Shown piece after piece: positions 1 to 9,148 of a stretch of 33,878 nt of DNA. The first letter of the stretch is position 1; each line of letters starts with the position of its first letter. Under the pieces are notes generated by a model, which was given only the letters and a program-made list of their open reading frames with translations, had not been told where the DNA came from and made no database searches. The position numbers and the translations under genes are program-made. Location: NCBI GenBank assembly GCA_015066845.1, contig SVNO01000020.1:1-33878 (forward strand), given 5' to 3'. Source of the DNA: Ruminococcus sp. (GTDB lineage Bacteria; Bacillota; Clostridia; Oscillospirales; Ruminococcaceae).

Positions 1-1800
1 TCTCAGCTTGCACTGTATAAGAAATACCATTACAATCCATTTCTGGATACGCTGCCGCTGCTCTTGCAGATTCCGATTGTTCTGGGATTGGTCGGTGTTA
101 TCTACAGACCGCTGCGTTTTGTACTGAACATTGACACAGATGTCATTGACCAACTGCATACATGGCTGACGGATACCTGCGGCATCACGGATGCAGGAAA
201 TATGTACGAGCTGAAAATTATGGAACTGCTGCAGGCAGGCACTCCCCCTCCCTCCGCTGCCGCACCGGATATGATTACAAAAATCACCGAATTCAGCATG
301 ATGTTTCTGAAGATTGATCTGGGCAGAACACCGTCCCTGCACGATAACCCGATACTGCTGCTGATTCCGCTTCTGGCAGGTGTCAGCGCGTGGGTACTGT
401 GCGCTGCACAGAATCGTCTGAATGTTTTGCAGCTGGCACAGGGAAAGCTGAACAAAATTCTCACAACCGTGTTTCTGGTCGCATTTTCCACATATTTTGC
501 ATGTATCGTACCCTGCGGCGTTGGCTTGTACTGGATTGCAGGCAATCTGTTTGCAATCCCGATGATGCTTCTGACAAATCTTCTGATTCCGCCTAAAAAG
601 TATGTCGATTATGCACGTTTGCAGGAAATGCGGACGCAGAAGCTGCAAAAGGAAGCGGAATTCCGGCAGTACAGAAAACGGGAGAGGGCAGATTACAAAC
701 GCTTTTTTGCGCAGAACAATATGCAGCTCATGTTCTATTCGGAGCAGAATGGATTCTACAAGTATTTTTCCGGTATGATTGATTATCTCTGTCAGCATAC
801 GGATATCACCATCCATTATGTCACCAGTGACCCGAATGACCGCATTTTTGACGATACAAGGGAACAGATTCAGGCATACTATATTGCAAGTGACCGGTAT
901 CTGGTGCCGTTGTTCATGAAACTGGAAGCGGACATGTGCGTTATGACCATGCCGGACCTTGAGAAGTACCATATCAAGCGTTCAAGAGTCCGCGATGATG
1001 TAGAATATGTATTTGCCTGTCATGGAATGGGCAGTATTTCCCTTTACCGCAAGGGTGCATTGGATTGGTTTGATACAATTCTCTGTCCGAATGCAGACCA
1101 GGCAAAGGAAATCCGAGCCTATGAAACACTTTATGATACGCCGCAAAAGCTGCTCGTAGAAGCAGGCTATCCCTTCATTGACCAGCTGATCGCTGATTAT
1201 CAGAAGCAGGAACATCCACGCCATGAAATTCCGCAGATCATCATTGCACCGTCATGGCAGAAGGATAATATCATTGACCTTTGTGCAGAGCAGTTATTGG
1301 ATGTACTGTCTGAATCGGGATTTTCCATTATTCTGCGTCCCCATCCGCAGCAGGTGCGGCATGAACCGGAACGGTTTTCTATGATGAAAGAACGCTTCCA
1401 GAAGTATCCGAACATCGAAATACAGACGGATTTTTCAGGGAATAACCCCATCATGGAATCCGACCTTCTGATTACGGACTGGTCGGATATTGCATGGGAA
1501 TATGCGTTTGCAACAAAGCGTCCCGTTCTTTATATTGACACGCCCATGAAGGTCATGAATCTGGAATATGAACAGATCGGCATTGAGCCTATCAATAAGA
1601 CCTTGCGTACACAAATCGGAGAGGTGCTGTCACTGGAGCGTATGGACACCGTTTGCGAGGTAATACGCAGGATGCTCCAGAACAAGGAAGAATACAGTGA
1701 ACGTATCACAAGAGTGATGCATGAACATTTGTACAATGTTGGTTCGAGCAGTGAAATCTGTGGAAGATATATCTCAAAATCACTGCAAAACAGACTATAG
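1..1800 (+). CDS. YidC/Oxa1 insertase fused to CDP-glycerol glycerophosphotransferase (5' partial)
   Basis: The frame is open from base 1, so the true start lies outside the window; 599 residues are visible. The first ~200 residues match the YidC/Oxa1 core: a loop with LALYKKYHYNPF, then LPLLLQIPIVLGL (TM2), LIPLLAGVSAWVLCAAQ (TM3 region) and PCGVGLYWIAGNL (last core helix), as in YidC. A basic linker (about 200-235) leads to a soluble domain typical of TagF/TagB-like CDP-glycerol:glycerophosphotransferases, with APSWQ (about 416), LRPHPQ (about 444) and ITDWSDIAWEYAF (about 491). The family transfers glycerol-phosphate (or related polyol-phosphate) from a CDP donor to wall polymers at the cytoplasmic membrane face. 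A fused insertase core is unusual; here it may simply anchor the transferase or help place it at the membrane. It heads a run with choline kinase and cytidylyltransferase genes 106 bases downstream, suggesting surface polymer modification. Fusion is seen directly; substrate is inferred. Confidence 0.85.
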   Translation, partial: SQLALYKKYHYNPFLDTLPLLLQIPIVLGLVGVIYRPLRFVLNIDTDVIDQLHTWLTDTCGITDAGNMYELKIMELLQAGTPPPSAAAPDMITKITEFSMMFLKIDLGRTPSLHDNPILLLIPLLAGVSAWVLCAAQNRLNVLQLAQGKLNKILTTVFLVAFSTYFACIVPCGVGLYWIAGNLFAIPMMLLTNLLIPPKKYVDYARLQEMRTQKLQKEAEFRQYRKRERADYKRFFAQNNMQLMFYSEQNGFYKYFSGMIDYLCQHTDITIHYVTSDPNDRIFDDTREQIQAYYIASDRYLVPLFMKLEADMCVMTMPDLEKYHIKRSRVRDDVEYVFACHGMGSISLYRKGALDWFDTILCPNADQAKEIRAYETLYDTPQKLLVEAGYPFIDQLIADYQKQEHPRHEIPQIIIAPSWQKDNIIDLCAEQLLDVLSESGFSIILRPHPQQVRHEPERFSMMKERFQKYPNIEIQTDFSGNNPIMESDLLITDWSDIAWEYAFATKRPVLYIDTPMKVMNLEYEQIGIEPINKTLRTQIGEVLSLERMDTVCEVIRRMLQNKEEYSERITRVMHEHLYNVGSSSEICGRYISKSLQNRL

Positions 1801-1906: not shown

Positions 1907-2833
1907 ATGATGCATATTTCAAACAAGCAGAACATACCGTTTTCCGCGCAGAAACTCGAACAGCTTGCAGGAATCCTGCACTGTCAGCCGGAGGACATTA
2001 CCGAAATTGAAGTGCTGAAAAAAGGAATGACCAATCAGTCCTTTCTGTTCTCCTGTCGGGGAGAACAGATGATTTTCCGCATTCCCGGAAAAGGAACGGA
2101 CTGCCTTATCAATCGGTTTCAGGAAGCGGAGGTATACCTGAAAATCGCTGGTCTGGGACTGTGTGACGATGTGGTATATATTGATGCTGCCACAGGTTAC
2201 AAAATCACCCGATACTTAAAAAATGTACGTTCCTGTCATCCGGAAAACGAAGCGGATGTCCGGCTCTGCATGAAAAAACTCCATGCTTTGCATGATATGC
2301 GGCTTGAGGTGGCGCACAGCTTTGATATTTTTCAGCAGATTGCTTATTACGAAAGTCTTTGGAACGGGATGCCCTCTGTTTATGCGGACTATTTGCAGAC
2401 CAAAGCTTCCGTCTTTTCTCTCATGCCATATATCCGCAAGCATTCCAAGGAATGGTGTCTGGCACATATTGACGCAGTACCGGATAATTTTCTGTTTACA
2501 ACGAATGATGACGGAACGGAACAGCTTCAGTTGACCGACTGGGAATATGCGGGTATGCAGGATCCGGATATTGACCTTGCCATGTTCTGTATTTACAGCG
2601 GCTATGACCGCAGCAGAATCGACGCACTGATTGACATTTATTTTGACGGAACATGTGAGGATTCGATACGAATCAAAATTTATGCCTATGTTGCAGCCTG
2701 CGGATTACTGTGGAGCAACTGGTGTGAATATAAAAGTCAGCTTGGCATAGAATTCGGAGAATATGCTTACAGACAATATACCTATGCCAAGGAATACAGT
2801 GCATTTGTAAGGAGGCTTCTGAACAATGCATAA
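1907..2833 (+). CDS. licA: LicA-like choline kinase (phosphotransferase family)
   Basis: 308 residues of the aminoglycoside/choline kinase fold. The N-terminal lobe has the LicA-type GMTNQSFLF and FRIPGKGT stretches. The catalytic loop is HIDAVPDNF (Brenner motif, HxDxxxxN) and the metal-binding Asp is in LTDWEYAGMQDPDIDLA, the choline-kinase form. LicA enzymes phosphorylate imported choline with ATP in the cytoplasm, giving phosphocholine for CDP-choline synthesis. The gene sits directly before a LicC-like gene (8-base overlap) and a BCCT transporter, so the pathway reads as uptake, kinase, cytidylyltransferase. ATG 1907 follows AAAGG by six bases; ATG 1910 is also possible. Ethanolamine or another amino alcohol as substrate cannot be excluded. 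Confidence 0.85.
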   Translation: MMHISNKQNIPFSAQKLEQLAGILHCQPEDITEIEVLKKGMTNQSFLFSCRGEQMIFRIPGKGTDCLINRFQEAEVYLKIAGLGLCDDVVYIDAATGYKITRYLKNVRSCHPENEADVRLCMKKLHALHDMRLEVAHSFDIFQQIAYYESLWNGMPSVYADYLQTKASVFSLMPYIRKHSKEWCLAHIDAVPDNFLFTTNDDGTEQLQLTDWEYAGMQDPDIDLAMFCIYSGYDRSRIDALIDIYFDGTCEDSIRIKIYAYVAACGLLWSNWCEYKSQLGIEFGEYAYRQYTYAKEYSAFVRRLLNNA

Positions 2834-3542
2834 AATTGAACGTGCGGTGATTCTTGCAGCAGGTAAAGGGGAACGGCTGCGTCCGGTAACACTTGATACG
2901 CCTAAGCCGCTTGTCAGAGTCAATGGCGTGAGGATGATCGACACCATTCTCAATGCGCTTCTTCATCATGGGATTACTGAGATCTATGTCGTGACAGGCT
3001 ACTGCAAAGAGCAGTTCTGTGAACTTGCCCATGACTTTCCGCAGATTGTATTACTGGACAATCCGTGGTACGAAAGCTGCAATAATATTTCCTCCCTGTA
3101 TGCAGCAAGGGAACACCTTGAGAATGCCTTTATCATTGACGGGGATCAGATGATTCATTCGGAAGCGGTGCTTTCGCCGTATTTTGAACGTTCCGGCTAC
3201 AATGCCGTCTGGATGGAACGGTCTGAAAACGAATGGATGATGACTGTACAGGATGGGATCGTAACCGGCTGCCAAAAAAACGGCGGAACGGATGCGTGGC
3301 AATTATACAGCATCTCACGCTGGAGTGCGGAAGACGCCAGAAAACTGCGCCGACATCTTGAACTTGAATTTGTGCAAAACAATAACCGCCAGATTTACTG
3401 GGATGATATTCCGATGTTCTGCCATGCGGATGCCTATACACTGGGCATTACGCAAATGAATGCGCAGGATGTACTGGAAATTGATACACTTGCAGAGCTG
3501 ATTCATGCCGACAGCTCCTACCGACATTATCATGAGGGCTAA
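2826..3542 (+). CDS. licC: LicC-like phosphocholine cytidylyltransferase
   Basis: 238-residue nucleotidyltransferase. The N-terminus has the pyrophosphorylase signature ILAAGKGERLRPVT followed by TPKPLV, the nucleotide-binding loop. VVTGYCKEQF, NNISSLYAAR and IIDGDQMI (metal-binding Asp) follow, as in LicC rather than sugar-phosphate enzymes. LicC makes CDP-choline from phosphocholine and CTP in the cytoplasm, the donor for decorating teichoic acids or glycolipids. The ATG lies inside the end of the kinase gene with AAGGAGG at 2809-2815, so the two are translationally coupled; the transporter starts three bases after the stop. A related substrate such as phosphoethanolamine is the main alternative. 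Confidence 0.82.
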   Translation: MHKIERAVILAAGKGERLRPVTLDTPKPLVRVNGVRMIDTILNALLHHGITEIYVVTGYCKEQFCELAHDFPQIVLLDNPWYESCNNISSLYAAREHLENAFIIDGDQMIHSEAVLSPYFERSGYNAVWMERSENEWMMTVQDGIVTGCQKNGGTDAWQLYSISRWSAEDARKLRRHLELEFVQNNNRQIYWDDIPMFCHADAYTLGITQMNAQDVLEIDTLAELIHADSSYRHYHEG

Positions 3543-3545
3543 ACA

Positions 3546-5108
3546 ATGAAACATACAGCAACCAACAAAAGCAAAATCGACTGGATGATTACCCTTGTTC
3601 CGCTGATTCTGATATGCGGACTAAGTTTTCTGTTTTTTCTTCTGCCTGAACAATCCAACGCGATATTGAGCAGGCTCCGCTTTTTTCTGGGAGATAAGCT
3701 GGGGCTTTATTATCTTGTCATCGGTATCGGCATCTTTGGATTATCCATTTACCTTGCACTGTCAAAATATGGGGATATTGTCCTTGGAAAGGAAGAAAAC
3801 AGCAAACCGAAATACAGTTTCTTCACCTGGGGAGCTATGATGTTTACCTGTGGGCTTGCAGCGGACATCTTGTTCTACTCATTTTCTGAATGGGTAATGT
3901 ATGCCGCTGACCCCCATCTAAGTGAACTTGGAACGGTGCAGGACTGGGCAGGGGTATTTCCACTCTTTCACTGGAGCTTCATTCCATGGGCGTTCTATCT
4001 TGTTCTTGCCGTTGCGTTCGGCTTCATGCTCCATGTCAAAAAGCGCAGCAGAAAACGGTATTCCGAAGCCTGCCGTCCGCTTCTCGGCAAGCAGACCGAT
4101 GGATTTGCCGGCAGACTGATTGACCTGCTGGCAGTATTTGCACTTCTTGCAGGTACGGCAACGACCTTCAGCGTCGCAACCCCACTCATGGCAGAAATCA
4201 TCACGGAATTGTTCGGTCTTACCATCAGCCGCCGCCTGATTACTGTCATCATCCTGTTGATTACCTGTGCGGTTTACACCTATTCCCTGCTGCACGGATT
4301 CAAGGGTATCAGCATACTGGCAAAGCTCTGCATTTATCTCTTTTTCGGATTGCTGCTCTTTGTCCTGCTGACAGGCGGTCAGACAGGGTACATCCTTGAA
4401 ACTGGTTTTTCCTCCTTTGGAAAAATGATACAGCATTTTATAGAGCTTTCCACCTATTGTGACCCATTGCGTACAACGTCCTTTCCGCAGAACTGGACGA
4501 TTTACTATTGGGCATACTGGATGGTATGGTGTGTTGCTGCACCGTTCTTTATTGGGAGCATTTCAAAAGGCAGAACAATCCGTCAGGTGATTTTTGGCGG
4601 TTATCTGTTCGGTGTCGGCTCTACACTTTGCAGTTTCATCGTTCTTGGGAATGAAACGATGGGCATTCAGATGCATGAACAGGCAGATTTTATTCAGGAA
4701 TATGTAAGTACAGGAGATTTGTATGCCATGATTATTCACATGATGGAAAAAATGCCGTTTTCTGTACCAATCATGCTGGTTGTGTTGGTGACGATGATTG
4801 CATTTTATGCGACATCCTTTGATTCCATTGCGCTCATTGCATCCTGCTACAGCTACCACAAGCTTGAAGAACAGGAACAGCCGCACAAACTGGTGCAGCT
4901 GATGTGGTGCATTCTTCTGATTATTCTGCCGATTGCACTGGTTTTCTCTGAAAGCTCGATGAGCAATTTGCAGTCAGTCAGCATGATTGCGGCATTTCCG
5001 CTTGGCATCGTGATGCTGCTGATTATTGCAAGTTTCCTGAAGGATGCCAAGAACAGCATTCGGAAACACAAGGAAAATGCTGATAAAAAGGCAGAGGACA
5101 ATTCATAA
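3546..5108 (+). CDS. BCCT-family choline/betaine transporter
   Basis: 520 residues with about twelve hydrophobic segments. BCCT-type signatures are visible: TWGAMMFTCGLAADILFYSFSEW in the TM3-4 region and the family block around WTIYYWAYWMVW with FIGSISKGRTIRQV, matching the WxxFYWxWW...RISRGRTIRE consensus. The family imports choline, betaine or carnitine, usually driven by sodium or protons. It occupies the position of the LicB choline permease of Streptococcus and Haemophilus, which belongs to a different (drug/metabolite transporter) family, so it is probably a functional replacement that feeds the kinase. The C-terminus is a short charged tail. It is the last gene before a bidirectional terminator. 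Confidence 0.85.
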   Translation: MKHTATNKSKIDWMITLVPLILICGLSFLFFLLPEQSNAILSRLRFFLGDKLGLYYLVIGIGIFGLSIYLALSKYGDIVLGKEENSKPKYSFFTWGAMMFTCGLAADILFYSFSEWVMYAADPHLSELGTVQDWAGVFPLFHWSFIPWAFYLVLAVAFGFMLHVKKRSRKRYSEACRPLLGKQTDGFAGRLIDLLAVFALLAGTATTFSVATPLMAEIITELFGLTISRRLITVIILLITCAVYTYSLLHGFKGISILAKLCIYLFFGLLLFVLLTGGQTGYILETGFSSFGKMIQHFIELSTYCDPLRTTSFPQNWTIYYWAYWMVWCVAAPFFIGSISKGRTIRQVIFGGYLFGVGSTLCSFIVLGNETMGIQMHEQADFIQEYVSTGDLYAMIIHMMEKMPFSVPIMLVVLVTMIAFYATSFDSIALIASCYSYHKLEEQEQPHKLVQLMWCILLIILPIALVFSESSMSNLQSVSMIAAFPLGIVMLLIIASFLKDAKNSIRKHKENADKKAEDNS

Positions 5109-5331: not shown

Positions 5332-6999
5332 TTATTCCGCGGCAACACGGCGCAGTTCCTCGCGTGCGTTTTCGAGCATGAGTGCGCTGGGATTGTCGCC
5401 GCCCATGATACGCGCGATTTCTTCCGTCCTGCCGTCAAAATCGAGCAGATGCACCTGTGTGACGGTGCGTTCGTCCTCGGTATGCTTTTCAATCATGTAA
5501 TGCGTGTCCGCCATCACGGCTATCTGGGAAAGATGGGTAACGCAGAGCACCTGTCGGCTGCGGCTGATTTCGCGTAGCTTAATGCCGATTTTCTGCGCTG
5601 CCTTGCCGCTGACACCGGTGTCGATCTCGTCAAAAATCAGGGTGGGGATGCTGTCGCGGTCTGCGATCACAGATTTGAGCGCGAGCATAATACGCGACAA
5701 TTCACCGCCGGATGCGATTTTTGAGATGGGTTTTGGCAATTCGCCCTTATTCGCGGAAATCAGGAACGTCACCGTATCGCGCCCCTGAATGGTCAGCTTG
5801 CCCTGTTCCTGCTGTACGGTCAGCACGACATTGGGCATGTCCAGAAACCGCAGTTCCTCGGAAACACGCGAAACGAAACGATTTCCGACCTGCTCGCGGT
5901 ACTCGGAAAGTGCTCGTGCCTTTTCAGTCACGTCCGCAAGCAAAGCCTGCTTTTTCTCCTCAAGCTCCGTGATTCTGGCAGTATCGGTCTGCATCTGCCC
6001 CATTTCCGTTGTCGCGCTCTCGTAAAGGGTGAGCAGCTCGTCAAAGTCGCAGAAAAACTGCTTTTTCACCTGCGCAATGGCATGGTATCGCTGGCGCAGC
6101 TTCTGGGCGCGGCTTTCATCAAGACTCACACCGTCTGCCATATGCCGCAGGTCGCCGGCAATGTCTTTCAGCTCAATGATTGCCGCCCTGAGTCGCTCCA
6201 TCGGCTCGTCCGTGCCGGAATAAACATCCTCAATCTCGCGCAATTGCTGCATGGCAATCTGGAGCAGTTCCACCACGCTGTCCTCCCCTTCTCCGTTGAG
6301 GATGCCGGCGGCGTTATTGAGTCCGCCGAGAATGCGCTCTGCATTTTCTGCCTGTATCAGGGCATTCTCAAGTTCTTCCTCCTCGCCGGGCTTTGGCTGG
6401 AGTGCGCCGATTTCCTGAATCTGTTTTTGCAGGAGCATTGCCCTCTGGCGGCGGTTCTGTTCCTCGCGGCGGAGTTTGCCAAGCTCCCGTGCAACTGTTT
6501 GCAGTTCGCGGAACGTATTCTGGTAAGCAGTCAGGCAGGAAGTATCACCGCCGAATTCATCGAGCACCTGCAAATGGTGCTCCGATGAAAGTAAAATCTG
6601 GTTGTCATGCTGCCCGTGGATGGAAATGAGGAGCGTACCGATTTCACGCAATGCGGAAACGGACGCGGTTTTTCCGTTAATTCTGCCAACGCTGCCGCCG
6701 TCCGCGCGAATCTCACGCGTCAGCGTAATCTGGCGTTCTTCGCAGGAAATCGCCATTTCTGCAAGCAGCTCCAACACATTGTCGGACAGATTGGTAAATA
6801 ATGCCGTCACGCAGGCACGTTCGCAGCCCGTGCGCACCCAATCCTTGGAAACGCGCTGCCCAAGGACTGCCTGAATGCCGTGAATCAAGATGGATTTACC
6901 GGCACCGGTTTCACCTGTGAACACATGGAATGCATCGCGGAAACGGATACATGCCTTTTCAATGACGGCGAGGTTTTCAATATACAATTCTTCTAACAT
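5332..6999 (-). CDS. recN: DNA repair ATPase RecN
   Basis: 555 residues, the usual RecN length. It has an SMC-like layout: Walker A GETGAGKS at 29-36, a long central coiled coil (about 150-370, rich in E, Q, R and L), the ABC signature ASGGELSR near 430, and Walker B LIFDEIDTG near 455. RecN is a cohesin-like ATPase recruited early to double-strand breaks and acts with RecA in recombinational repair. It follows argR by four bases in the conserved tlyA-nadK-argR-recN order. In many spore formers spoIVB and spo0A come next; here only a small gene and a terminator follow. Confidence 0.97.
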   Translation of the reverse strand: MLEELYIENLAVIEKACIRFRDAFHVFTGETGAGKSILIHGIQAVLGQRVSKDWVRTGCERACVTALFTNLSDNVLELLAEMAISCEERQITLTREIRADGGSVGRINGKTASVSALREIGTLLISIHGQHDNQILLSSEHHLQVLDEFGGDTSCLTAYQNTFRELQTVARELGKLRREEQNRRQRAMLLQKQIQEIGALQPKPGEEEELENALIQAENAERILGGLNNAAGILNGEGEDSVVELLQIAMQQLREIEDVYSGTDEPMERLRAAIIELKDIAGDLRHMADGVSLDESRAQKLRQRYHAIAQVKKQFFCDFDELLTLYESATTEMGQMQTDTARITELEEKKQALLADVTEKARALSEYREQVGNRFVSRVSEELRFLDMPNVVLTVQQEQGKLTIQGRDTVTFLISANKGELPKPISKIASGGELSRIMLALKSVIADRDSIPTLIFDEIDTGVSGKAAQKIGIKLREISRSRQVLCVTHLSQIAVMADTHYMIEKHTEDERTVTQVHLLDFDGRTEEIARIMGGDNPSALMLENAREELRRVAAE

Positions 7000-7003
7000 G
7001 CAC

Positions 7004-7444
7004 TCACCTGCCCTGAATTTCTGACAGCATCTCTGCTGCGTAGCGTTTCGCCTGCGCGGCGGTGCGGATCAACACGAAAATTGTGTCATCTCCGGCAAGC
7101 GTACCGACCACATCGGGACGGACGATTTCATCCAACACCGTGCAGACTGCCTGTGCAGTGCCGCTGCGGCATTTGATGGCAACCGTATTTCCGGCATAAT
7201 CCACGCCAACGATATTACCGGCGAACAAATCCGAATGGGGCAGCGGTGCATCGGATACGACATAGCGGTAATTGCCGCTGCTGTCGGCTTTTTTGATGAG
7301 ATTCAGCTCGCGGATATCGCGGGAAATAGTTGCCTGTGTCACAGGATAGCCGCGCTCCGTGAGCAATGCCTGCAATGCATCCTGATTGGAAACGGCATTG
7401 GTTCGAATGAGTTCCATGATTTCCATTTGTCTTGCGTATTTCAT
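7004..7444 (-). CDS. argR: Arginine repressor ArgR/AhrC
   Basis: 146 residues. The N-terminal winged helix carries the diagnostic recognition helix TQATISRDIRELN (about 36-48). The C-terminal hexamerisation and arginine-binding domain shows CRSGTAQAV and GTLAGDDTIFV, where the GTxAGDDT aspartates contact arginine. ArgR represses arginine biosynthesis and activates catabolism when arginine is bound. ATG 7444 is preceded by GGAGG. Its place before recN and after nadK is the standard clostridial and Bacillus arrangement; that location reflects genome order rather than arginine genes nearby. Confidence 0.96.
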   Translation of the reverse strand: MKYARQMEIMELIRTNAVSNQDALQALLTERGYPVTQATISRDIRELNLIKKADSSGNYRYVVSDAPLPHSDLFAGNIVGVDYAGNTVAIKCRSGTAQAVCTVLDEIVRPDVVGTLAGDDTIFVLIRTAAQAKRYAAEMLSEIQGR

Positions 7445-7462
7445 GTACGTTTCCTCCGGCGG

Positions 7463-8335
7463 TTATTGTTCGGGGAAGCCCTTGACGGAGTGCATGAGTT
7501 TGTGGTGCACTGCGTCATAAAAATTGGATTTTTTCAATTGCAGCAGGGAGATTTCATGCGACGACCGGCAAAGCTCCAGCCGGTAGTTGGATGGGAATGC
7601 AATGGGGGCTTCGCCATCCGCGCTCAGGAAAATCTGCCGTTCGCTGCCTGCGGTATGTGTGATTGCAATGCGGCGTTCCGCGGACAAAAGCATGGGACGA
7701 TTAAAGAGGGAATGCGGACAAATCAACGCAATTTCCATGCATTGCAGCTCCGGTTCAATGATTGGCCCGCCTGCGGACAGGGCATAGGCTGTCGAGCCTG
7801 TCGGCGTACTGCACACCATGCCGTCTGCACGGAATTGTCCGAGCAGGATGTTGTCGGCGTAGATGGAGAACGGGAAAACCTTCCCCATGGACGCAGAAAC
7901 AGCAATGTCATTGAGTGCGGTAAAGCAGGTTTTTGTACCCTCGCCCGTCAGTTCGCCATGCAGAAGCATCCGTCTGGAAACGGAATAGTCCCCCTCCGTC
8001 AGCCTGCCCAGCATATCCAGTTCATCTGCCTCCATACTTGCCATGAAGCCGAGATAGCCGGTATTGATGCCGAGCAGCAGAGCCTTTGAACCGATCATCT
8101 GCTTTGCGCAGCGCAGGATTGTGCCGTCACCGCCGATGGCAATGACAATATCCACCTCATGCGCAAGTGTGAAAAATGTCCCGCATTGCACCTGCGCGAG
8201 GGAGGAAAATTCCGCTGCATATGCGGTATCCACATAGCAGACCGCGCCGAGCTTATCAAGGCGTTTGCAGACCTCCAATGCACAGGGGAATGCATTTTGC
8301 TTTTGAAAATTCGGAAAAATCGCCACTTTCAGCAT
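7463..8335 (-). CDS. nadK: NAD kinase
   Basis: 290 residues. The ATP/polyphosphate-NAD kinase signature GGDGT is at 68-72, followed by LLGINTGYLGFMA. The NAD-binding region holds ALNDIAV, and the conserved block FRADGMVCSTPTGSTAYALSAGG is complete. The enzyme phosphorylates NAD to NADP in the cytosol and sets the NADPH supply for biosynthesis. The start follows GGGGGA, which overlaps the end of tlyA, so translation is coupled. Length and motifs are normal. Confidence 0.96.
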   Translation of the reverse strand: MLKVAIFPNFQKQNAFPCALEVCKRLDKLGAVCYVDTAYAAEFSSLAQVQCGTFFTLAHEVDIVIAIGGDGTILRCAKQMIGSKALLLGINTGYLGFMASMEADELDMLGRLTEGDYSVSRRMLLHGELTGEGTKTCFTALNDIAVSASMGKVFPFSIYADNILLGQFRADGMVCSTPTGSTAYALSAGGPIIEPELQCMEIALICPHSLFNRPMLLSAERRIAITHTAGSERQIFLSADGEAPIAFPSNYRLELCRSSHEISLLQLKKSNFYDAVHHKLMHSVKGFPEQ

Positions 8336-8338
8336 AAT

Positions 8339-9148
8339 TTATCCCCCATTTATCTCCGCTTCACGAATCATTTTTACCAAATCAAGCTGCGGTTCTGCCT
8401 GATTGCTGCCCTTGACAAGATAGACAAGGTATTCTGTATTTCCCTTTCCCTCACCGCCGCGGATGGGGGATACGCATAAGCCCTGCACGGAAAAACCGAT
8501 GCTTCGCGCAAAAGCCGTTACATTCTCAATCACGGACTTGTGCGCAGATTCGGACTTGACAATACCACGCTTTCCGATTTGTTCCCTGCCTGCCTCAAAC
8601 TGGGGCTTAATCAGTGCCACGCATTCGGAATGCTCTGCAAGCAGTGCATAAACGGCAGGGAGAATCAGCGTCAGAGAAATGAATGAAACATCAACGCTGC
8701 AAAAGTCCGGTATTTCGGAAAAATCCGCCGGTGCCATCAGACGGACATCCCGTTCTTCCAGACAGACAACCCGTGCATCCTGCCGCAGCTTATCGTCAAG
8801 CTGTTTCTTGCCGACATCAATTGCATATACTTTCTTTGCGCCGTGCTGGAGCATACAATCCGTAAAACCGCCCGTGGACGCGCCGACATCCATGCAGATT
8901 CGTCCCTCCACGGTGACAGGAAAGCGGTGCAGTGCTTCACGCAGCTTCAGTCCGCCCTTGCCGACATAGGGAATATCCTCCCCGATGAGCGTGAGCGTGT
9001 CATTGTCCCCCACCATCTGTGAGGGCTTGGTGCAAATGCTGCCGTTATGCAGCACAAGTCCGTCTTTCAGCAGCCGCTTTGCGCGGGAACGGCTCTTACA
9101 AACGCCGCGTTCTGCCATTGCAATATCAATTCTTTTTTCCATACTCAT
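8339..9148 (-). CDS. tlyA: TlyA-family rRNA 2'-O-methyltransferase (YqxC type)
   Basis: 269 residues. An S4 RNA-binding domain occupies about 5-60 (RIDIAMAERGVCKSRSRAKR), followed by the linker YVGKGGLKL and an FtsJ-like methyltransferase domain with the SAM motif MDVGASTGGFTDC at about 86-98 and VDVSFISLTLILP further on. TlyA proteins methylate ribose positions in 16S and/or 23S rRNA; some homologues affect sensitivity to capreomycin-type antibiotics. The gene overlaps the end of dxs by 23 bases. ATG 9148 and ATG 9142 are both possible starts; neither has a strong ribosome site, which fits coupling. Confidence 0.9.
   Translation of the reverse strand: MSMEKRIDIAMAERGVCKSRSRAKRLLKDGLVLHNGSICTKPSQMVGDNDTLTLIGEDIPYVGKGGLKLREALHRFPVTVEGRICMDVGASTGGFTDCMLQHGAKKVYAIDVGKKQLDDKLRQDARVVCLEERDVRLMAPADFSEIPDFCSVDVSFISLTLILPAVYALLAEHSECVALIKPQFEAGREQIGKRGIVKSESAHKSVIENVTAFARSIGFSVQGLCVSPIRGGEGKGNTEYLVYLVKGSNQAEPQLDLVKMIREAEINGG

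Follow-up and report, generated by a model that had tools for sequence, protein, structure and literature searches.

A YidC-transferase fusion gene from Ruminococcus and its permuted relatives point to an undescribed machine for small surface head groups

We analysed a 33,878-nucleotide contig of Ruminococcus sp. (GenBank assembly GCA_015066845.1, contig SVNO01000020.1), here called the window, whose first gene joins the core of the membrane insertase YidC to a transferase of the TagF type. Together with the permutations of its domains in related genomes, this fusion points to an undescribed machine that decorates the cell surface with small head groups, phosphocholine for example. The parts of the fusion gene are as follows (window coordinates unless a locus is named).

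1..1800, + strand: yidC::tagF-type fusion gene, 3' 599 codons, in a single frame open at the 5' end of the contig
4..129, + strand: overlap with the end of contig C18, 126 bases identical (129-base overlap in which bases 1-3 differ)
7..576, + strand: YidC/Oxa1 core domain past the first core helix (PF02096, profile 56-161)
676..1794, + strand: end of the linker and GT-B transferase domain of TagF/TarL fold (invariant His, RPHP, D-x-S)
1111..1539, + strand: PF04464 match proper (Pfam)
L007 19256-19621: 5' part of the fusion gene, last gene on contig C18 (same assembly)

Both domains were found in one continuous frame of 599 amino acids (aa), as a preliminary description of the window had proposed, and both exceeded their Pfam cut-offs. 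In the window frame, PF02096 matched aa 3-192 (profile 56-161 of 163) with 55.6 bits against a cut-off of 35, and PF04464 (Glyphos_transf) matched aa 371-513 (profile 146-293 of 367) with 36.2 bits against 22.1, and there was no frameshift. The window is contig C83 of an assembly (G000) of 106 contigs that is about 93% complete, and the missing 5' end was located on C18, whose last gene supplies the start and the first core helix of the fusion. The hydrophilic-groove position of this piece is Lys, showing that the groove charge is kept, although not as the Arg expected at first. In a genome of the same order (G037), one 711-aa frame spanned both domains with 249 of 627 aligned columns identical, and all 17 sequences of the fusion alignment (A3) matched both PF02096 and PF04464; these single-frame relatives exclude an assembly join between the domains. 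In G012, which belongs to the same genus, the sulfatase-family gene, the small-protein gene and the YidC N-terminus described below shared one contig (L019), and the fusion itself was unseen because that contig ends inside YidC.

The core domain was whole, and not reduced to one helix, in 16 of 16 full-length fusions and in the two pieces of the window gene, and the groove residue was Lys in 17 and Arg in 1 of the 18 readable fusion rows. In the model of a relative (L018), the YidC part matched the fold of Bacillus halodurans YidC, while the transferase part was closest to the solved TagF and TarL folds. A sequence profile of the transferase gave no match to solved structures at E 0.01, and the sole match of a stand-alone homologue was a TagF-like capsule polymerase at E 0.055. 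One His and the His of the RPHP motif were invariant in 27 of 27 sequences; these may correspond to TagF H444/H548 and TarL H300, residues named in the titles of solved entries.

The operon starts upstream of the window. On C18, a sulfatase-family protein of 595 aa (PF00884, 33.7 bits, cut-off 25) and a 102-aa protein precede the fusion in the same direction, with gaps of 112 and 2 bases. The fusion had rightly been placed at the head of choline-activation genes, since licA, licC and a BCCT gene follow it; the operon as a whole begins with the sulfatase-family and small-protein pair, and the sulfatase-family enzyme supplies the third domain of the module. The remaining features are listed below.

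L007 18945-19253: small membrane protein, 102 aa, Y-I-D-P-A-T
1907..2833, + strand: choline kinase, LicA-like (PF01633)
2826..3542, + strand: nucleotidyltransferase, LicC-like by context (PF12804/PF00483)
3546..5108, + strand: BCCT choline/betaine/carnitine transporter (PF02028)
5332-9148, - strand: frames that we take to be recN, argR, NAD kinase and tlyA, ordinary and unrelated
L151 6050-9847 (1265 aa), L154 6056-10135 (1359 aa) and L155 1223-5485 (1420 aa): triple fusions

In the sulfatase-family enzyme, the metal-binding D, H and DH were conserved in 27 of 27 sequences and Thr occupied the likely nucleophile position in 26 of 27; the catalytic roles of this Thr and of the metal ligands are known for the family. 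The copy in the window's genome had no NCBIfam match. The motif Y[ILV]DP was present in 76 of 77 small-protein sequences, a set that counts some contigs twice, and in 67 it stood directly after a signal-peptidase-like site; every Pfam match of the small protein was below cut-off.

The transferase half was then used as a profile over 394 genomes of the order, 30 of which matched in two groups. Fusions were found in 17 genomes (E <1e-120, frames of 599-729 aa), so that all 17 close matches had the architecture of the window gene; among the other 16 fusions, a sulfatase-type gene lay beside 14 and the small protein beside 13. Stand-alone transferases occupied 16 places (E 1e-39 to 1e-53, frames of 416-473 aa), and three genomes (G177, G214, G375) had one of each. 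Next to the stand-alone form, a PF02096 place adjoined the transferase in all 16 cases, with frames of 885-996 aa except for 230 aa in G149, and at all 10 loci fetched the neighbour (877-984 aa) matched both PF02096 and PF00884. A model of such a YidC-sulfatase protein showed the sulfatase fold; its YidC part was poorly modelled, with no YidC among the 50 matches listed. At three loci of Lachnospiraceae metagenome-assembled genomes (MAGs), YidC, transferase and sulfatase followed in that order in one frame. A further permutation was seen in G821, where the fusion (PF02096 112 bits, PF04464 57 bits) stands beside a 756-aa sulfatase-family frame (L225 2781-5051) that also matches the small Y-I-D-P protein. 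The neighbour at L061 9483-11030 gave no Pfam match. Permutations of this kind argue strongly for the parts working together.

Named genomes were scanned as well, with at least 587 matches, of which the 80 best were kept; 77 of these are fusions, and each of the remaining three loci starts close to a contig end (4-70 bases). Judged by length, five or more of the 80 are the same contigs as order-set loci (for example L115 and L050), so the two sets are not independent. The carriers were largely uncultured Clostridia, with some cultured strains, among them Angelakisella massiliensis, Bittarella massiliensis, Clostridium aminobutyricum and Anaerotruncus sp. G3. The last of these carries two fusion genes on opposite strands (L184, 3070 and 6272); a TagD-like gene lies close to one of them, and phosphonate-type genes lie past the other. 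Fusions at L140, L152 and L157 were in MAGs labelled Planctomycetia and Treponema, by lateral transfer or as mis-binned contigs. In a sample of the phylum, 6 of 398 genomes matched the transferase: the window's own, G821 with its fusion, G674 and G744 (frames of 428-433 aa), G739 (cut short) and G800. Of 37 genomes of the window's genus, many of which are incomplete, G000 and G012 matched, a distribution suggestive of acquisition by transfer or of repeated loss.

The fusion is a copy distinct from the housekeeping yidC, which lies on contig C88 of the window's assembly beside frames that are presumably jag, trmE and dnaA. A PF02096 place outside the module was present in 31 of 31 genomes, all picked for carrying the module, and G037 has a separate yidC on the contig of its fusion. 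A phylogenetic tree covered 55 YidC domains (the window piece, the C18 piece and HK_L088 were left out). The fusion YidCs formed one clade (100/100), with housekeeping YidC from the window's genus as its neighbour (98/91); the YidCs of the YidC-sulfatase proteins formed a separate clade (100/100) on a long branch. Since one clade of both was not rejected by the approximately unbiased (AU) test (p-AU 0.12), we make no claim that the two fusion types recruited YidC independently. The distinct copy and its outer-enzyme module support, and extend, the earlier suggestion of a dedicated surface machine in place of general membrane insertion.

To class the neighbours of the 80 named loci, we used phmmer with single references taken from these loci, and the classes were partly rechecked. 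Choline kinase was found in 17 loci, all confirmed by PF01633. The class for phosphoenolpyruvate (PEP) mutase, 'PepM', proved too wide: Pfam confirmed 13 of 18 candidates, and four members had class I/II aminotransferase domains and one a radical SAM domain, which lowers the strict phosphonate count from 28 loci to 24. A PEP mutase candidate stood together with a decarboxylase in 13 loci, of which only L066 was rechecked. A phnS2-like binding protein was present in 11 loci, and all 11 matched TIGR03261, although the two reported scores, 162 and 172 bits, fall short of the cut-off of 393 and its ligand is therefore presumptive. No locus was both phosphonate-type (24/80) and choline-type (17/80), with a p = 0.001 that is optimistic because related loci are not independent. 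Activation genes of any kind were found in 55 of 80 named loci, 9 of 16 other order fusions and 9 of 10 YidC-sulfatase loci, against 0 of 20 housekeeping-yidC loci (Fisher p 6e-9, 1e-4 and 7e-7, respectively). Single-reference phmmer detected no LicD at the 80 loci and a TagD-like gene at one of them. PepM-class frames with no nearby decarboxylase were seen at L144, L169, L174 and L175; these are probably the four members with aminotransferase domains counted above, as nucleotidyltransferase-aminotransferase fusions, and, with the HisC/CobD-like enzyme of L051, may point to a head group of a third type.

G800 has a close relative of the transferase (379 bits) in a 389-aa frame without YidC, and the locus (L224) encodes PEP mutase, a decarboxylase-type thiamine pyrophosphate enzyme, a nucleotidyltransferase, a class-V aminotransferase, the transferase, a Y-S-D-P small protein and two sulfatase-family proteins. 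This complete-looking aminoethylphosphonate cluster supports CMP-aminoethylphosphonate as a donor.

At the genome level, LicA was found in 17 of the same 394 order genomes, 11 of them with the module, and 19 module genomes had no LicA (Fisher p 7e-10); in 11 of 11 genomes with both, LicA lay on the contig of the module. LicD was present in 4 of the 6 LicA genomes that have no module, and the window's genome had no match to LicD (PF04991). It has one CDP-alcohol phosphotransferase, and choline-binding repeats occurred in three of its frames. One of these (L222 676-2454, G000:C12) contains six Choline_bind_3 stretches and a transglutaminase-like domain, and its start reads, we assume, like a signal peptide and a dockerin. 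The repeats were found in 4 of 36 genomes: G000, G012, G273 (which has LicA and LicD) and, once, G191.

'Glycerophosphotransferase' is merely the name of the Pfam family. In the window's genome (93% complete assembly), the best match to TIGR01518 (TagD) scored 28.4 bits against a cut-off of 165.4, at the level of background matches. Among 31 module genomes one exceeded the cut-off, as did two among 14 control genomes; this cut-off is strict, and nearly full-length matches of 97-109 bits in five module genomes mean that other alditol donors are possible. Thus, of the proposal of a TagF-type CDP-glycerol transferase, the PF04464 match and the TagF/TarL fold stand, but with TagD so rare and choline or phosphonate genes nearby, glycerol is doubtful as the substrate and probably wrong.

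We regard as evenly poised the reading that the fusion contains a dedicated YidC paralogue whose C-terminal tail is a phosphotransferase of TagF/TarL fold, and that it forms a head-group transfer machine with the small Y-I-D-P membrane protein and the outward-facing enzyme of the alkaline-phosphatase superfamily, which has LtaS/EptA-type residues. The C-terminus of YidC is cytosolic, so the fused transferase is placed where CDP-choline is made. In a first step, this domain would put a head group activated with cytidine monophosphate (CMP) on a membrane-bound acceptor; the donor would be CDP-choline from the adjacent licA and licC in the window's genome, and CMP-2-aminoethylphosphonate or a similar phosphonate in relatives. 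In a second step, the YidC domain, with its helical core kept, may bring the lipid-linked product to the outer leaflet by lipid scrambling, or may instead hold the enzymes together. In a third step, judging from its conserved residues, the outer enzyme would hand the head group to a surface glycan. The analysis establishes the architecture with its permutations, the folds, the conserved residues, the operon and the gene linkage; the three steps are inferred. E. coli YidC, yeast Oxa1 and Get1 have been reported to scramble lipids in liposomes (PMC10491306). The fuller proposal, with the Oxa1-superfamily fold as the lipid-crossing part between inner loading of a phosphocholine or phosphonate lipid and outer transfer, is put forward only tentatively.

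Several observations weigh against this reading of a head-group machine, apart from the incompleteness of the window's assembly. LicD was present in 5 of the 11 genomes with LicA and the module (none in the other 6), and in L065 LicD and a TagD-like gene adjoin the module. Choline-binding repeats were missing from 14 of 16 LicA genomes searched, so they fit surface phosphocholine in the window's genome and make no general rule. Two more PF04464 proteins of this genome could use CDP-choline; the one examined has a GT2 domain. None of the activation genes sought was found at 25 of the 80 named loci, 10 of the 55 positive loci had only a LicC-like gene, which belongs to a broad family, and the best-aligned order relative, G037, had no activation gene in the 16 kb read. 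The predicted TM-score (pTM) of the fusion model was 0.57, leaving domain placement unsure. The groove residue of housekeeping YidC was 17 Lys, 2 Arg, 5 Glu, 3 Gln and 1 Asn in 28 readable copies; since these vary, groove charge is no proof of function, and it is lost in the YidC-sulfatase proteins (Asn in 10 of 10, L065-L074). Finally, no YidC was found within the 12.5 kb read at the G800 locus, showing that the YidC part is not always required; if working alike, that system crosses the membrane some other way.

The main rival, which we hold to be rather improbable, is that the YidC domain serves as a dedicated insertase or chaperone, putting the outer phosphotransferase and the Y-I-D-P protein in place and keeping them there, with the fused transferase just profiting from the common location. 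The kept core fold and the Lys or Arg in 18 of 18 readable fusion rows suit such a role, as does the small protein as a likely client, given its Y[ILV]DP after a signal-peptidase-like site and a signal-peptidase-like gene in 34 of 80 named loci. Against this, the YidC-sulfatase proteins have the groove Asn, no small protein was found at those 10 loci by the rule used, and in G800 the small protein and the outer enzymes occur in the absence of this YidC.

It is unlikely that the YidC part is now a mere membrane anchor that recruits enzymes, its insertase past playing no part. Its fusion to two unlike partners, the groove charge lost in one group and a G800 transferase that manages without YidC would all fit an anchor, but the whole core is kept in 16 of 16 full-length fusions, in the window's two pieces and in 3 of 3 triple fusions.

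Still less probable is a true glycerophosphotransferase that makes a glycerol-phosphate polymer on a YidC scaffold, with choline decoration later. The above-cut-off PF04464 match, the closest solved folds and the LicD and TagD-like genes of L065 favour this polymer, whereas the rarity of TagD in module genomes (1/31) and at named loci (1/80), the count of LicD there (0/80) and a window genome that has no LicD to decorate a polymer speak against it. As for an assembly or binning artefact, the window does begin inside a gene and disagrees with the overlapping contig at its first three bases, but the fusion was seen at 77 of the 80 named loci, cultured strains among them, and in all 17 aligned proteins, and we count an artefact as already refuted.

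Among the titles and abstract openings listed in a literature search, with most subscription journals outside its coverage, none describes a YidC-transferase fusion. To our knowledge, no bacterial pathway has been shown to depend on lipid scrambling by an insertase, and with YidC built into a two-enzyme envelope module such dependence becomes testable. The fusion is a candidate phosphocholine transferase for bacteria in which LicA and LicC occur without LicD, and a candidate user of CMP-2-aminoethylphosphonate. If the scrambling reading is true, the route would be independent of LicD, insertase scrambling would have a use in nature, and there would be a candidate for the CMP-phosphonate transferase still missing from the Pnt pathway.

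Compared with YidC/Oxa1/SpoIIIJ, the C-terminal tail of the fusion is replaced by a GT-B transferase of about 400 aa, and a separate housekeeping copy exists. The wall teichoic acid polymerases TagF and TarL share its fold, but here the transferase is fused to YidC and linked to choline or phosphonate genes, in a window genome with no clear CDP-glycerol source. The LicD phosphocholine pathway runs through licABC and licD; LicA, LicC, a choline-type transporter and choline-binding-repeat proteins are likewise present in the window's genome, whereas LicD is not, and the fused transferase stands in its place. With LtaS, LtaP, EptA and PbgA (PF00884), the module enzyme shares the sulfatase fold, the Thr at the likely nucleophile position and the metal-binding D, H and DH; unlike them, it is encoded with, or fused to, a YidC domain. 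In Pnt phosphonate tailoring (PEP mutase, PntC), the later steps have been called enigmatic, and the main text of that report mentions neither YidC nor sulfatase, and LicD once (PMC6697681). The likeness to the Pnt pathway is that PEP mutase and decarboxylase genes adjoin the fusion at 13 of the 80 loci and also neighbour its unfused counterpart in G800.
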